Shown: positions 13,376 through 58,688 of the stretch, in pieces
Position numbering within the stretch: the stretch's first letter is position 1
How the letters are laid out: every line of letters starts with the position of its first letter
Assembly (NCBI GenBank): GCA_027065695.1
Contig: JAMONP010000052.1
Location: forward strand, 124,001-188,000
Reading direction: 5' to 3'
Length of the DNA: 64,000 bases
From: Desulfuromonadales bacterium
Lineage (GTDB): Bacteria > Desulfobacterota > Desulfuromonadia > Desulfuromonadales > BM103
The notes under the pieces: generated by a model
The model's input: the letters and a program-made list of their open reading frames with translations, nothing else
What the model was told of the DNA's origin: nothing
Databases searched by the model: none
Program-made: the position numbers and the translations under genes

Positions 13376-14491
13376 ATGGACCATCGTCATACAGAAAACT
13401 TTTATGCCATCGTTTCACCAGGCCTGGAAAACGTGTGTGCGACAGAGCTCACGGCCCTGGAGATAACCCCACAGGAAGTCGATGTCGGCGGTATTTCCTT
13501 TACAGGTCGTTTGCGCGATCTCTATCGAGCCAACCTCTGGCTGAGAAGCGCCAGTCGGGTTCTAGTTCGCTTTGCTGAATTCCGCAGCCGGGATTTTCCG
13601 GATCTTTATCGTCGGGCGAAACGCCTTCCATGGGGGCGTTTTATTCGACCTGAGGCTGCTATCTCCTTCCGCGTCACCTGCCATTCGTCACGTCTCAACC
13701 ACACCACACGGGTTGCAGAAGCCCTTGAGTCGGCACTCAATCAAGCACTCGGCCGTTCGACAAATCCTGTCAGTAAAAAACCCCAACTCATACTGGTCAG
13801 AATTGTCGATGATCAAGTGACTCTCTCGATTGACAGTTCCGGTGAACTCCTGCACCGTCGTGGTTATCGGCAGTCGGTAACCGTTGCACCTCTACGTGAA
13901 ACACTGGCGGCTGGAGTACTGATGCTGCTGGGCTGGAACGGTACAGTGCCCCTGACAGACCCTATGTGCGGTTCGGGGAGCTTCCTCACCGAAGGAGCGC
14001 TGCTGGCGCGCCAACAGGCTCCGGGGCTTAATCGCTCATTCGCCTTTATAGCCTGGCCAGGATATCGTGATGGGCTATGGAAGCTCCTATGTGATGAGGC
14101 CCGTCGAGGGGAAGTTGATTTGAGCATGGCCATTAGTGGTGCTGATGAAAACCCCAAAGCGGTTGCTTCTGCAAAAGAAAATTGCCAGCGTTGCGGAGTT
14201 GTTGACCAGGTTGTAATCGATCAACGACCCCTCTCTGAGCAGCCGGTACATGATAACCAGGGTTTACTTGTCTGCAACCCACCTTATGGCAAGCGCCTTG
14301 ATCTGGGAGAAAACCCGGAATTTCATTACTCCGAGCTTGGACAGCAATTGCAGCGCAGCTATCCCGGCTGGCAATTGGCAATGATCTGTTCTGATCCAAA
14401 ACTGGTGAAAGCAACCGGTTTGCCATTCAAGAAGATCGCCAGTCTCGACAATGGTGGCTTGAGGGTTGGGTTATTTACGACAAAATTCTAG
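13376..14491 (+). CDS. THUMP-domain class I SAM-dependent RNA methyltransferase (RlmL/YpsC-type)
   Basis: FYAIVSPGLENVCATEL, DPMCGSGSFLTEGAL and VCNPPYGKRL motifs. Confidence 0.92.
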   Translation: MDHRHTENFYAIVSPGLENVCATELTALEITPQEVDVGGISFTGRLRDLYRANLWLRSASRVLVRFAEFRSRDFPDLYRRAKRLPWGRFIRPEAAISFRVTCHSSRLNHTTRVAEALESALNQALGRSTNPVSKKPQLILVRIVDDQVTLSIDSSGELLHRRGYRQSVTVAPLRETLAAGVLMLLGWNGTVPLTDPMCGSGSFLTEGALLARQQAPGLNRSFAFIAWPGYRDGLWKLLCDEARRGEVDLSMAISGADENPKAVASAKENCQRCGVVDQVVIDQRPLSEQPVHDNQGLLVCNPPYGKRLDLGENPEFHYSELGQQLQRSYPGWQLAMICSDPKLVKATGLPFKKIASLDNGGLRVGLFTTKF

Positions 14492-14505
14492 AAGCAGGCT
14501 CTCTC

Positions 14506-14666
14506 GGAGCTTGTCCGACAATAAGGGTCGAAGCGAAAACCCGGAAGTTTGAGAACAGATTTTGGCTTGTTTGAGAGTAATAGCCATAGCTATTGGTCGA
14601 AAAGGAGCTGCAATATGGGCCAAACAGCTGGGTTTGCAGCCGATCATGGATTGTCGGACAAGCTCC
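14506..14666 (+). mobile_element. MITE-like/palindromic 161-bp element, copy 1
   Basis: Bounded by GGAGCTTGTCCGACAAT ... ATTGTCGGACAAGCTCC. The halves are imperfect reverse complements around AATAGCCATAGCTATT. About 90% identical by eye to the reverse complement of 18500-18660. Confidence 0.88.
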
Positions 14667-14774
14667 TCGTCGCAATTCGAGGATTCTCGCTTGCACTGTG
14701 TTGTAAAGTCAGCTATAGTCCGCATTCTTCTCTCTCAGAGGGATTATTTTTCCAAGAAAGCGAGGTGATTGCAG

Positions 14775-14969
14775 GTGGAGATCCATGTTATCGACAATAA
14801 TGTCGAGAAAGCCATCCGGGTTCTCAAGCGTAAGCTACAGCAGGAAGGTCTTTTCCGTGAAATGAAGCAACGTAAATTCTACGAAAAGCCCAGTGTTAAG
14901 CGTAAGCGCAAAGAGAAAGAAGCCCAGAGGCGCCTGCGTAAGAAAATGCGCATGATGCGCAGAGACTAA
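14775..14969 (+). CDS. rpsU: 30S ribosomal protein S21
   Basis: [64 protein letters not shown]. Likely GTG start at 14775 after GAGGTG; the ORF track TTG at 14769 is an alternative. Confidence 0.95.
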
Positions 14970-14994
14970 TCATCGCGTTTAGTCTATTTTTGAG

Positions 14995-15032
14995 AAAGGC
15001 CGGATCCTGTAAACAGGGTCCGGCCTTTTTTT
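14995..15032 (+). terminator. Rho-independent terminator after rpsU
   Basis: AAGGCCGGATCCTG taaa CAGGGTCCGGCCTTTTTTT. Confidence 0.92.
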
Positions 15033-15067
15033 GTCGGAAGCAGAGATAGCCCACTGCCACCAATGTC

Positions 15068-15763
15068 TTATAAAATCTCCGGAAACACAACCTTCTCCGC
15101 GACACCTTCAGGCCCCAACCCTCCAATCACCAAACGCTCAAGAAAATCCTCACGCGCAAGATGACTGGCGCCCATACTGACCAAGTGTGGATTGCTAACC
15201 TGGCAGTCGAACAGGACAAAACCTTCTCTCTTCAGATACCTGGCAAATTGAACCAAGACGACCTTGGAAGCATTCGGTTGATAATGAAACATCGATTCGC
15301 CAAAGAAGAATTTCCCCAGAGCAACACCATAGAGACCACCAACCAGTTCATCACCGCACCAGGCTTCCACTGAATGGGCAAAACCTAGCCCATGCAGCTT
15401 TTGATAAGCTGTCTGCATCTCTTGTATCAACCAGGTTTCCTCACCATTGTGAACCCGGACATTGGCACAGGCCTCAACAACCTGTTTAAATACACGATTG
15501 CAGGTCAAACGAAAACGGTTCTGCTTAATAATTCTGCCAAGTCGCCGTGAGACATACACGTTTTCTGGAATCAGCACACAGCGCGGATCCGGTGACCACC
15601 ACAGGACCGGTTCATCTTCACCGTACCAGGGGAAAATGCCGAGTTTGTATGCCAGAATCAGCCGTTCCGGGGAGAGATCACCGCCGATGGCCAGCAAACC
15701 TTCCGCAGTAGCCCAGTTCGGGTCAGGGAATATCAGTTCATCGGTGAGTTGGAAGATGGGCAT
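15068..15763 (-). CDS. aat: Leucyl/phenylalanyl-tRNA--protein transferase
   Basis: FPDPNWATAEGLLAIGGDLSPERLILAYKLGIFPWY, WWSPDPRCVL, FFGESMFH, FDCQVSNPHLVSMGA. Confidence 0.97.
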   Translation of the reverse strand: MPIFQLTDELIFPDPNWATAEGLLAIGGDLSPERLILAYKLGIFPWYGEDEPVLWWSPDPRCVLIPENVYVSRRLGRIIKQNRFRLTCNRVFKQVVEACANVRVHNGEETWLIQEMQTAYQKLHGLGFAHSVEAWCGDELVGGLYGVALGKFFFGESMFHYQPNASKVVLVQFARYLKREGFVLFDCQVSNPHLVSMGASHLAREDFLERLVIGGLGPEGVAEKVVFPEIL

Positions 15764-15787: not shown

Positions 15788-18034
15788 TCAAGAGTAGCTG
15801 AAATCAAGCTTGCCTGATTTGCAGGCGATGCGGACTTTGCCGCCGCGAGTGAGTTGACCGAAGAGAATTTCGTCGGCGAGGACATTGCCGATTTCGCTTT
15901 CGATCAAGCGTCCCAGCGGGCGGGCACCGAAAACCGGGTCATAACCACGGCGGGCCAGCTCACGTCGAGCACCATCGGTCAGGCTCAAAGTCACCTTGCG
16001 CTCGTCCAACGAGGTCTGTAGCTGGTGGATAAACTTGTCAACCACACGAGTCATGACTTCTTCATCGAGAGGACGGAAGGCGATAATGGCATCGAGGCGA
16101 TTGCGAAACTCCGGTGAGAAGATTTTCTCAACCGCCTGGCGCGCCTCACCTGGTAAGCGGTCGCCGAAGCCAATCGGCACGCTGCTCATCTCTCGGGCAC
16201 CAGCATTACTGGTCATGATCAGGACAATATTATGAAAATCCGCCTGACGACCGTTGTTGTCTGTTAAGGTGCCATGATCCATGACTTGCAAGAGGATATT
16301 GAAGATATCCAGATGCGCCTTTTCAATTTCATCGAGGAGCAACACAGCATGTGGATTGCGAATCACCGCATCGGTCAAAAGGCCGCCCTGTTCGAAACCG
16401 ACATATCCGGGTGGCGATCCGATCAGGCGGGAGACAGCATGCTTCTCCATATATTCACTCATATCGAAACGCAGGAACTCCACGCCCATCTGCATGGCAA
16501 GCTGTTTGGCAACTTCGGTTTTGCCGACGCCGGTTGGCCCTGTAAAAAGAAACGATCCGGTCGGTTTCTCCGGTTGGCCGAGACCGGCACGAGCCCGGCG
16601 GATGGTCTGGCAGAGTTGCTCCACTGCCTGGGCCTGGCCGAAGACCTGACGCTTGATCGACTTATCGAGATCTTTCAGCTTGCGCCGATCAGTCTTGGCA
16701 AGCTTGCGCGCCGGGATGCGTGCGATCCCAGCAACCACCGTTTCAATGTCAGTGACGCCGATGGTCGAACTTTTACGTGGATAGATGCGCAGCCTGGCAC
16801 CAGCCTCATCAATCACATCAATTGCCTTGTCCGGCAAACGCCGAAAGTTAACATGCCGAGCAGACAGGCGGGCTGCCGCAACCAACGCTGCGCTCGTATA
16901 TTTTACTCCATGATGCTCTTCATAATAGCCTTTGAGCCCCTGGAGGATTTCGACTGTTTCATCAACACTTGGCTCCAGCACATCAACTTTCTGAAATCGT
17001 CGCGAAAGAGCCCGGTCCTTTTCGAAGAGATTTTTATATTCTTCGTAGGTGGTCGAACCGATACAGCTGATCTCACCGGAACCCAGCACCGGCTTAAGTA
17101 TATTAGCCGCGTCGAGAGATCCGCCACTGGTAGCGCCAGCACCGACGATCGTATGAATCTCGTCAATCACCAGAATAGCCCGAGGGCGTTTTGACAGAGC
17201 ATTTACCACCGCTTTGAGACGTTCTTCAAAGTCGCCCCGGTACTTGGTTCCCGCCAGCAAAGCTCCCATGTCGAGGGCAAAGAGCTCAGCATTCTGCAGT
17301 ATTTCCGGCACATTCTGATCAACAATACGAAGGGCCAGGCCTTCGGCAATGGCAGTTTTACCGACACCAGGCTCGCCGACCAGTACCGGATTGTTTTTGC
17401 GTCGGCGACAGAGGATTTGCACCGTGCGTTCCAGCTCGGCCTGTCTGCCAACCAGAGGGTCAATCTTACCTTTGGCTGCTCGCTCGAGAAGATTGATCGT
17501 AAAAGCCTCAAGTGGATTGATTTTCGTCGTCGGTTTACTGCCAGGTGATTGCTTGGTTTGCTCATCCAGATTCTGCTGCTCGAGCTCGGGTTCCTGAAAA
17601 GGTCCCTTGGTGATGCCATGAGAAACGTAGTTCAAAACATCAAGCCGGGACATCCCTTCGGCCTGAAGAATCTGCGCTGCCAGGCAATCTTCCTGCTCAA
17701 GAATTGCTGAGAGAATATCGCCAATGCCAATTTCCTTACGCCCTGATGACTGCATGTGAGTCACCGTCCGCTGCAAAACATTTTGCAAGCCAACTGTTTG
17801 TTCCGGCATATCTTCATCGGCCTGTTGCAATGATTCGAGGTGTTGATCGAAAAAAAGTTCAATATCTGCACGCAAGTTATCAACATCGCCACCACAGGCC
17901 TGCAGAATCTCCTGACCCTGTTCATCGAAGAGCATCGCGTACAAGACATGCTCGGTCGTCAGAAATTCATGATGCCGGCGTTGAGCCTCTCTGACGGCAA
18001 GTGAAAAAGCTATTTGAACATCCTGATTAAACAT
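15788..18034 (-). CDS. clpA: ATP-dependent Clp protease ATP-binding subunit ClpA
   Basis: [35 protein letters not shown], two Walker A motifs ([25 protein letters not shown]), [20 protein letters not shown]. Confidence 0.97.
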
Positions 18035-18094: not shown

Positions 18095-18424
18095 TCAAGC
18101 CTGCTCCAGAGAGCAACGCAACGGAAAGCCCTCCTTACTCGCCATAGCGCTAACCTTACGGATCTTGGTCTCAGCAACTTCGTATGGATAGGCACCACAG
18201 ACTCCTGAACCTTTAAAGTGAATATGCAACATGATTCGGTTCGCCTCGGTAGGTGACTTATGAAAAACAGCGATCAGGGCCTCAACAACAAACTCCATAG
18301 TCGTGTAATCATCATTATGCATCAGAACAGTGAACATCGGCGGTAACTTGATCCGGGCACGATGGCTCACTTCAGTATGAAATTGGTTTCCAGCAGTTGG
18401 TCTTGCCATATTTTTACCTATCAA
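18095..18424 (-). CDS. clpS: ATP-dependent Clp protease adaptor ClpS
   Basis: PPMFTVLMHNDDYTTMEFVVEALIAVFHKSPTEANRIMLHIHFKGSGVCGAYPYEVAETKI. Start may be ATG at 18409 (MARPT). Confidence 0.97.
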   Translation of the reverse strand: MIGKNMARPTAGNQFHTEVSHRARIKLPPMFTVLMHNDDYTTMEFVVEALIAVFHKSPTEANRIMLHIHFKGSGVCGAYPYEVAETKIRKVSAMASKEGFPLRCSLEQA

Positions 18425-18499: not shown

Positions 18500-18660
18500 G
18501 GAGCTTGTCCGACAATCCATGATCGGCTGCAAACCCAGTTGTTTGACCCATATTTCAGCCCCTTTTTGACCAATAGCTATGGCTATTACTCTTAAACGTG
18601 CTAGAATCTGTTCTCAAACTTCTGGATTTTTGCTTCGATACTCATTGTCGGACAAGCTCC
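18500..18660 (-). mobile_element. MITE-like/palindromic 161-bp element, copy 2 (inverted relative to copy 1)
   Basis: GGAGCTTGTCCGACAAT...ATTGTCGGACAAGCTCC termini, flanked by CTA/TAG so the palindrome extends to CTAGGAGC...GCTCCTAG. Same length as copy 1. Confidence 0.88.
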
Positions 18661-18774: not shown

Positions 18775-20739
18775 ATGTCTAAGTCTACACCTGAAAAACA
18801 ACCTTTTTTGCTTTTTTGTGGCTGGTTCTTTGCCGGAGCCCTGCTCGCTCTCATTGTAACCTTCCTGGCACGCAACCTTCAGAACCTGCCTACGGATATC
18901 AATCATCTATGGCTGCCAGTTGTGTCAGGGAGCTTGATTGGCATCCTCTTCGGTTGGTCGAACATTCGCCTGCGTAGCATGAATTATCGTTTAAAGAACA
19001 GTGAAAATCGCTTTTTGGAATTCTTCCAGAATACCCCAGCCATGCTGCATTCAATGAATAGTGAGGGATATCTTCTTTACGTCAGCCAATCATGGCTCGA
19101 TACTCTCGGCTACGATCACGGTGAGGTCATCGGCAAGGATTTTTTCAGCTTTGTTGTTGGCGAGAATATTCCGGAAATCCGGACAAAACACTTTCGACAA
19201 CTAAGAGATTCAGGTGAAATCAAGGACATCAACTATCAATTGTGGCTGGCTGACGGTTCAACAATTGATGTATCCATTTCCGAAGTTGCTCGACGTGATT
19301 CTAACGGGCACCTGACCGATAGTCTGGCCGTTCTCAATGACCTGACCGACCACCGCGCCGCCGAAGAACGCATTGAAAGACTGGCATACTACGATACCCT
19401 GACCGGGTTGCCCAACCGGGCCTTGATGAATGATCGTATTCTGCAAGCAGTGGCCCATGCCAGACGTGACAATCGTCAGTTAGGTGTTTTCTTCTTTGAT
19501 CTCGACCGCTTTAAACTGATCAACGATACTCAGGGACATGCAGTCGGTGACCTGGTCCTACGTTCCGTCGCTCAACGCTTGAAGAAATTCATACGCGAAG
19601 GCGACACTTTTGCCCGCCTGGGCGGCGATGAATTCGTGATTGTGCAGGCTGACCCAAACCATGACCCCAACTTTACCACCATGGGACGACGCATCCTGGA
19701 GGCCTTGGCGCAACCTTTTCAGATTGACAACCGTGAATTATTCACCACAGCCAGTATCGGCGTGGCGGTCTACCCTATAGATGGTGAAGAACCACAAGCG
19801 CTGTTAAAAAGTGCCGATACGGCTATGTATGTTGCCAAAAGTCGTGGCCGCAACAATATCCAGTTCTTTTCAGAAGAGATGAATGCAGCCGCCCAGGCCA
19901 AGACGGACCTTGAGAATCGCTTGCGTCAGGCACTGAGCAGCGGAGAGCTGCAGCAGCATTACCAACCTCAGGTCAACCTGGCGACCGGCCACATCACCGG
20001 CGTCGAGGCACTGCTGCGATGGTACGATAGCGACGGCAACCTGATCTCTCCAGGTCGAATCATCAGTGTTGCCGAAGAAAGCAGTCTGGCATTTCATTTG
20101 GATGAGTGGGTTCTAAAAACGGCCTGTGCCCAGGCCCGGGCCTGGCAAGATGCCGGACTACCACCATTCCGCATGTCTGTAAATCTCTCTGGACATCACA
20201 TCCGCCAAACCAATTTTATTGATCAAATTGAATCGATTCTGAAGGAAACAGGGATCCATCCCAATACTCTGGAGATCGAATTGACTGAAAATTCGATCAT
20301 GGGGCATGTCAATGACAGTATCATTGCTTTGACTGATCTCAAGATTCGTGGAATTAATCTTGCGATAGACGATTTCGGCACAGGTTATTCCTCTCTGTTA
20401 TACCTTAAACATTTTCCAATTCATCGGATCAAGATCGCCCACGAATTCATTCGTGACATCATCCACAACCCTGATTACGCTGCTATTACCGAGGCCATTC
20501 TAAGTATGGCTGCCAGCCTGAACCTCTCTGTTACGGCCGTCGGCGTTGAAGATCCAATGCAGTTGGACTTTTTACGCAAACGTGGTTGTCGGGAAGCGCA
20601 AGGGCTGCTCTTTGGCGCAGCCATGAGTGCTGAAGACATGACACACTTCCTCAACAATTCTGACAATTTACTCTTCGGCATAAAAAAGCAAGGTGATCAA
20701 AGTGAGTTAAATTTTGAAGGATCTCAGGAAATCCATTAG
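18775..20739 (+). CDS. Membrane PAS-GGDEF-EAL protein
   Basis: Two N-terminal hydrophobic segments, a PAS region, RLGGDEFVIVQ (intact GG(D/E)EF), VEALLRW (EAL) and DDFGTGYSSLLYL. Confidence 0.95.
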   Translation: MSKSTPEKQPFLLFCGWFFAGALLALIVTFLARNLQNLPTDINHLWLPVVSGSLIGILFGWSNIRLRSMNYRLKNSENRFLEFFQNTPAMLHSMNSEGYLLYVSQSWLDTLGYDHGEVIGKDFFSFVVGENIPEIRTKHFRQLRDSGEIKDINYQLWLADGSTIDVSISEVARRDSNGHLTDSLAVLNDLTDHRAAEERIERLAYYDTLTGLPNRALMNDRILQAVAHARRDNRQLGVFFFDLDRFKLINDTQGHAVGDLVLRSVAQRLKKFIREGDTFARLGGDEFVIVQADPNHDPNFTTMGRRILEALAQPFQIDNRELFTTASIGVAVYPIDGEEPQALLKSADTAMYVAKSRGRNNIQFFSEEMNAAAQAKTDLENRLRQALSSGELQQHYQPQVNLATGHITGVEALLRWYDSDGNLISPGRIISVAEESSLAFHLDEWVLKTACAQARAWQDAGLPPFRMSVNLSGHHIRQTNFIDQIESILKETGIHPNTLEIELTENSIMGHVNDSIIALTDLKIRGINLAIDDFGTGYSSLLYLKHFPIHRIKIAHEFIRDIIHNPDYAAITEAILSMAASLNLSVTAVGVEDPMQLDFLRKRGCREAQGLLFGAAMSAEDMTHFLNNSDNLLFGIKKQGDQSELNFEGSQEIH

Positions 20740-46417: not shown

Positions 46418-46494
46418 TGTCATTCTCGAAGGTTTAATCGAGAATCCAGACTTAAAATCCATGGATCCCCGATAGAATCATTAGGGGATGACAG
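46418..46494. repeat. Dispersed palindromic repeat (TGTCATTC...GGGGATGACA), copy A
   Basis: TGTCATTCTCGAAGGTTTAATCGAGAATCCAG...ATGGATCCCCGATAGAATCATTAGGGGATGACAG. Closely matches 58488-58564. Confidence 0.88.
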
Positions 46495-46535
46495 CCGTTT
46501 TTATAAACAACGCAGAGCTTTACTGCGGAGTCAGT

Positions 46536-58487: not shown

Positions 58488-58564
58488 TGGTCATTCCCGA
58501 GGGTGTAATCGGGAATCCAGCCTTTAAATCATGGATCCCCGATAGAATCATTCGGGGATGACAG
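58488..58564. repeat. Dispersed palindromic repeat (TGGTCATTC...GGGGATGACA), copy B
   Basis: TGGTCATTCCCGAGGGTGTAATCGGGAATCCAGCCTTTAAATCATGGATCCCCGATAGAATCATTCGGGGATGACA between dapA and dapB. Confidence 0.88.
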
Positions 58565-58688
58565 ACCGTTTGTAAATAATTCAGATTGTGCCGAATAGTT
58601 ACAAATTTTATGGAGTGTAAATCCGGAAGATTCAAGGTTTGACTCTGTGCTCCTTATCTCTTTTTAAGTTAATTATTGAGGTTAAAAA

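Follow-up and report, generated by a model that had tools for sequence, protein, structure and literature searches.

A dispersed 161-bp palindromic MITE of Desulfuromonadales and the pairing of its hairpin

A palindromic element of 161 bp is dispersed among Desulfuromonadales genomes as copies with fixed ends and no coding capacity, inserted at TA/CTAG-like sites that lack it in relatives. With its many copies of fixed length and precise ends, its TA/CTAG target and its empty sites in congeners, it is best read as a MITE mobilised in trans, which supports what an earlier note had proposed from two copies alone. The element also has several general features of a MITE: its length falls within 50–500 bp, its 17-bp terminal repeats are perfect, it holds no ORF of note, and its copies are dispersed, with precise ends and with empty sites in relatives. 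It is most like IS630/Tc1-mariner or ERIC-type elements. The account that we consider probable is of a non-autonomous MITE, served by a TA-duplicating transposase acting in trans, whose hairpin would aid its propagation and whose remnants would derive from slippage.

Copies in the window and across genomes

The window analysed here is a stretch of 64,000 nucleotides of the host genome and contains two copies. Copy 1 (14506..14666), of the GGAGCTTGTCCGACAAT end-subfamily, lies on the + strand, which is its better-folding strand; copy 2 (18500..18660) lies on the - strand, between flanking CTA and TAG. Position, length and opposite orientation are as the earlier note had described them, and its estimate of about 90% identity with differences mostly in the first half was accurate: there are 16 differences (90.1% identity), 11 of them within the first 80 positions. 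The termini, said to be perfect inverted repeats, are so over 17 bp, at 14506..14522 (left, +) and 14650..14666 (right, -) in copy 1 and at 18500..18516 (+) and 18644..18660 (-) in copy 2. Four occurrences of the end motif fall in the window against 0.13 expected. The halves had been called imperfect reverse complements able to form a long hairpin, and copy 1 indeed folds over its full length, at -40.6 kcal/mol as DNA (z -8.1) and -81.6 as RNA (z -10.2). No transposase ORF lies in the element, again as noted, and the ORFs that overlap it are short and mechanical.

The copies flank a block of rpsU and aat-clpA-clpS, the arrangement first reported for them, with an RlmL-like methyltransferase gene and a PAS-GGDEF-EAL gene as outer neighbours. 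The former, encoding a THUMP protein (13376..14491, +), ends 14 bp before copy 1. The insertion of copy 1 lies 24 bp upstream of promoter-like boxes (TTGCAC..TATAGT, 14691..14719, +) that it leaves intact and that, on inspection, are kept in aligned congeners; rpsU follows (14769..14969, +; ribosomal protein S21, named by its sequence). In a congener (G002, locus L199) the rpsU start codon and its promoter-like boxes are separated by a 63-bp derivative of the element, which would thus be transcribed in the 5′ leader. Overlapping the rpsU end is a sub-threshold match to the Rfam L20 leader (14911-15037, +; 28.8 bits, cut-off 58.7), probably by chance. Next come aat (15068..15763), clpA (15788..18034) and clpS (18095..18424), all on the - strand. 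Copy 2 sits upstream of clpS, in the region shared with the divergent PAS-GGDEF-EAL gene (18775..20739, +). Elsewhere in the window, a 42-bp direct repeat (CATGGATCCCCGATAGAATCATT..; 46460-46501 and 58530-58571, 90% identical, 12 kb apart) is possibly another dispersed repeat.

A local inverted duplication was rejected as the origin of the two copies, because each has a nearer match among copies elsewhere (97.5% and 92.5% identity) than in the other. Such further copies, on which the earlier note had hung its proposal, are many in the host genome and in relatives. All 40 candidates scored in the host genome (3.39 Mb, 108 contigs) were copies or large parts of copies, and near-full or large partial copies number at least 40 there. 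With up to two mismatches, the end motif has 92 matches in this genome and its reversed control none; 30 end pairs are spaced 161–163 bp apart. The element is present in 32 of the 58 related genomes searched, the host included. G034, a complete genome from another family, has 138 end motifs, and its congener G050 has no match to the element. In a scan of species genomes, all among the matches listed belong to Desulfuromonadales or unnamed Deltaproteobacteria. Plasmid and phage searches yielded no element, and viral contigs yielded one short remnant. Some host copies of a second end-subfamily share ~90–92% identity with a copy from a different family, as against only ~75–80% identity for clpA DNA between congeners; this sequence comparison may reflect horizontal spread, strong constraint or both. 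Placement is intergenic, with two of 163 copies inside an ORF of at least 120 codons.

Insertion sites, ends and the search for a mobiliser

The flanks of 168 copies give the consensus CTA, element, TAG, with frequencies of C.80, T.82 and A.89 to the left and T.92, A.79 and G.79 to the right; positions farther out are random. This is the CTAG preference of IS630/Tc1-mariner-type MITEs. TA stands on both flanks of 97 of the 168 copies. Where flanks are not TA, left and right are rarely the same, so some flanks are unlike simple duplications. The outer T of the TA is altered more frequently than the inner A, and one idea is that a repair or mutation bias against CTAGG lies behind the flank changes, as very-short-patch-like repair would make CCAGG.

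Empty sites, a check that the earlier note had named, are plentiful in congeners. The copy 1 site is empty in seven of them and is compatible with a 2-bp duplication: the putative duplicated TC (14504..14505 on the left, 14667..14668 on the right) is read from the comparison with congeners, several of which have a single CTCG. The copy 2 site is empty in several congeners, and a relative of the element has inserted independently into the clpS-upstream region of another congener species. Queries made of joined flanks found empty sites for further insertions beyond the window. A 2-bp duplication is clearest at the L004 and L015 sites (TTG, element, TGGAG against TTGGAG; CCTA, element, TACTTGC against CCTACTTGC), the remaining empty sites being too diverged to decide. 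The target duplication that the note had thought worth seeking is thus clear at two empty sites, while the rarely matching non-TA flanks do not bear it out. A 4-bp CTAG duplication found no support: TTGG and CTGG stand on opposite sides of the element at L004, and 4-mers other than CTAG match across the element no more often than in shuffles.

Another palindromic repeat, unrelated to the element and with ends CTAGTGTCCCGTGCGG, likewise occurs at CTAG sites (L069:2256-2424 and the right flank of L023). At L023 the 161-bp element adjoins the end of this repeat, as if inserted into its CTAG. At L069:2213-3059 a thioesterase-like gene and this second repeat are enclosed by the two ends of the element (42 bp of the left, 44 bp of the right) in correct relative orientation; this may be a copy that carries cargo, or a pair of remnants.

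The ends of the family follow the pattern GGAG-N-YTGTC-S-GA-S-W-AT. Inverted-repeat positions 2, 11, 14 and 15 covary at both ends, and their four main codes define four end-subfamilies. Both ends carry an identical 4-position code in 120 of 163 copies, and left and right ends differ by a mean of 1.5 mismatches within an element versus 3.5 when shuffled. This covariation fits reading by one protein and also a hairpin base that needs to pair. Short forms of 21, 36, 40, 56, 63 and 69/70 bp were found, along with many one-ended remnants. In several genomes the 69/70-bp form turns up with an identical junction that lies between two GGCCC direct repeats, and the 21-bp form has its junction at the two GACAA repeats of the ends. 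Such derivatives match what slippage across an extruded hairpin would be expected to leave.

The earlier note had also suggested looking for a transposase that shares the element's ends, and here the search of host and relatives came back empty. IS630-type DDE_3 is absent from the host (G000) and from G034 and occurs in five of the 31 genomes searched; none of these five loci has matching end pairs, nor do the DDE_Tnp_1 and Y1 loci inspected. An autonomous parent was found neither among the unpaired ends of G000 and G034, whose neighbours in the host are, on inspection, ordinary genes, nor among long-spaced end pairs at all loci. One such long-spaced pair (L314) is actually an 86-bp copy plus an unrelated end, and L366, a degenerate DDE remnant that has a weak end-like sequence upstream of it, was not counted. 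The partner transposase may be lost, transient or recognisable by experiment only.

Should the MITE reading be right, an IS630/Tc1-mariner-like or TA-targeting IS5-type transposase that duplicates TA would act in trans, recognise the 17-bp ends and cut the element out. Insertion would follow at TA within CTAG, with a 2-bp duplication. The element would spread with the help of its long hairpin, in the form of single-stranded DNA or RNA. Once inserted, it would give rise to the 21- to 70-bp remnants by slippage between short direct repeats across the hairpin.

Hairpin conservation and competing explanations

When the pairing geometry is kept strand-neutral, 58 Watson-Crick pairs, six G.U and no A.C are counted in the consensus on the copy 1 + strand, and ~12 non-wobble mismatched positions remain. 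Covariation was scored in 37 divergent copies over the core alone, with the ends left out. Twelve of 26 core pairs have changed on both sides, and doubly changed cells number 53, against 18 (sd 3) in shuffles and 2–12 in slid controls. Allele frequencies were then compared in 163 copies mapped onto a 39-sequence alignment, which was used instead of a 163-copy realignment that had a degenerate fold and gave a singleton test without bias. Deviant core cells are paired for 34% of rare, 63% of intermediate and 92% of common alleles, and 34% is about the expectation from random single changes. The difference between rare and common alleles argues that copies decay without evident constraint after insertion and that founding lineages keep the pairing. 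Judged from these sequences, it seems to be the propagating lineages, and not the individual insertions, that keep the hairpin. That spreading lineages keep pairing which individual copies lose at about the neutral rate suggests that the hairpin would help propagation. The MITE reading is thereby refined: compensatory change conserves the full-length hairpin, whereas a MITE that depended on its ends alone would have no need of this.

Pairing may also differ between strands. The core of the copy 1 + strand folds better as RNA in all 163 copies, and the strand with a possible RNA role is the GGAG..AAGGGTCGAAGCG strand. Rare variants among the 163 copies have no G.U excess. Because the copies share ancestry, the strand bias is at most suggestive, and perhaps ten coordinated changes plus that ancestry lie behind both this signal and that of the common alleles. 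A stricter dependence on the hairpin, in which the element spreads only when one strand folds as a full 161-nt hairpin, through a strand-specific single-stranded DNA or RNA form and a transposase without shared ends, appears unlikely.

Mutation might maintain the hairpin in its own right. Template-switch correction occurs in imperfect palindromes, and the deletion derivatives suggest that this palindrome misbehaves during replication. Template switching in the quasi-palindrome would correct the arms of plain MITEs that need only their ends, and palindrome-correcting switches could mimic part of the covariation. However, the consensus mismatches, which correction should erase, persist, and recent variants show no correction towards pairing; we regard this explanation as possible, with considerable doubt. 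Alternatively, the element could be REP/REPIN-like: a Y1 (HUH, RAYT-type) transposase would move it as hairpin DNA in single-stranded form and leave no target duplication. Both a hairpin that spans the whole length and a one-strand bias would suit this. Y1_Tnp has 15 matches in the host, the majority of them within RAYT-sized open frames, and some in most relatives. Yet the Y1 loci examined have no adjoining element, except for a lone truncated end ~0.7 kb from one, and no RAYT gene flanked by the repeat was found among those inspected, which take in part of the 15 host loci. The same CTA/TAG preference on both flanks and the 2-bp duplication at the L004 and L015 sites also speak against such movement. 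Moreover, carriers such as G008 and G010 have no Y1 match, whereas copy-free G050 has eight, and we judge a REP/REPIN-like origin to be quite improbable. The host Y1 transposases are themselves many, differing and RAYT-sized, with several near contig ends.

Intergenic placement and a conserved one-strand RNA fold could point to a host-functional RNA, such as a regulator or mRNA-stability hairpin under host selection at its insertion sites. The sites examined are, however, empty in congeners, rare variants break pairs at a near-neutral rate, orientation relative to genes is weakly biased (48 vs 31, tandem gene pairs), and an Rfam search over the elements found no matching family. A host function of this kind is very improbable.

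Relation to known repeat families

ERIC elements sit at TA sites and form imperfect palindromes over their whole length. Elements of the ERIC and Correia type are short and intergenic, reach tens to hundreds of copies in many genera of one lineage, and owe any mobilisation to functions in trans (PMC10969869). The present family resembles them as a short intergenic high-copy element across a lineage; it differs from ERIC in host order, in having no sequence relation recognised by eye, and in ends that form at least four covarying subfamilies. IS630 prefers the TA in 5′-CTAG-3′ (Tenzen and Ohtsubo 1991, as cited in PMC2170065), and ISY100, an IS630-family member, duplicates TA (PMC2170065). The TA-in-CTAG target and the putative 2-bp TA duplication are shared with IS630/Tc1-mariner elements and their MITEs, from which the family is set apart by a host genome without DDE_3 transposase and by none found elsewhere with the element ends. 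The Chunjie MITE of Geobacter uraniireducens, intergenic with many full and partial copies (PMC10969869), is an intergenic MITE of a related bacterium but has a described length of 178–235 bp. REPs and REPINs are likewise high-copy extragenic palindromes; REPs, however, are 20–40 bp long and tagged GTAG or CGTC (PMC3733652), and no RAYT association was found for the element.

The family is not named in the literature searched, which excludes the supplementary repeat alignments of PMC3543383 and PMC2700814; it or a relative may be among the repeats aligned there for Pelobacter carbinolicus and Geobacter metallireducens. It is a real mobile MITE family and a new one, ERIC-like in form and IS630-like in target. 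New here are co-changing ends in four end-subfamilies, compensatory changes in the inner hairpin, rare variants that break pairs at about the neutral rate while shared variants keep them, and hairpin-spanning deletions that leave recurrent 21- to 70-bp derivatives. For Desulfuromonadales genomes, the element doubles as a practical marker of repeats and indels. Its most interesting part is the evidence for hairpin upkeep in propagating lineages, an unusual signature of selection. To our knowledge, no transposase has been identified for ERIC-like palindromes, nor is there agreement on why their hairpin spans the full length. With covarying ends, empty sites, and decaying copies set against structure-keeping lineages, these ERIC-type questions of transposase and hairpin become testable.
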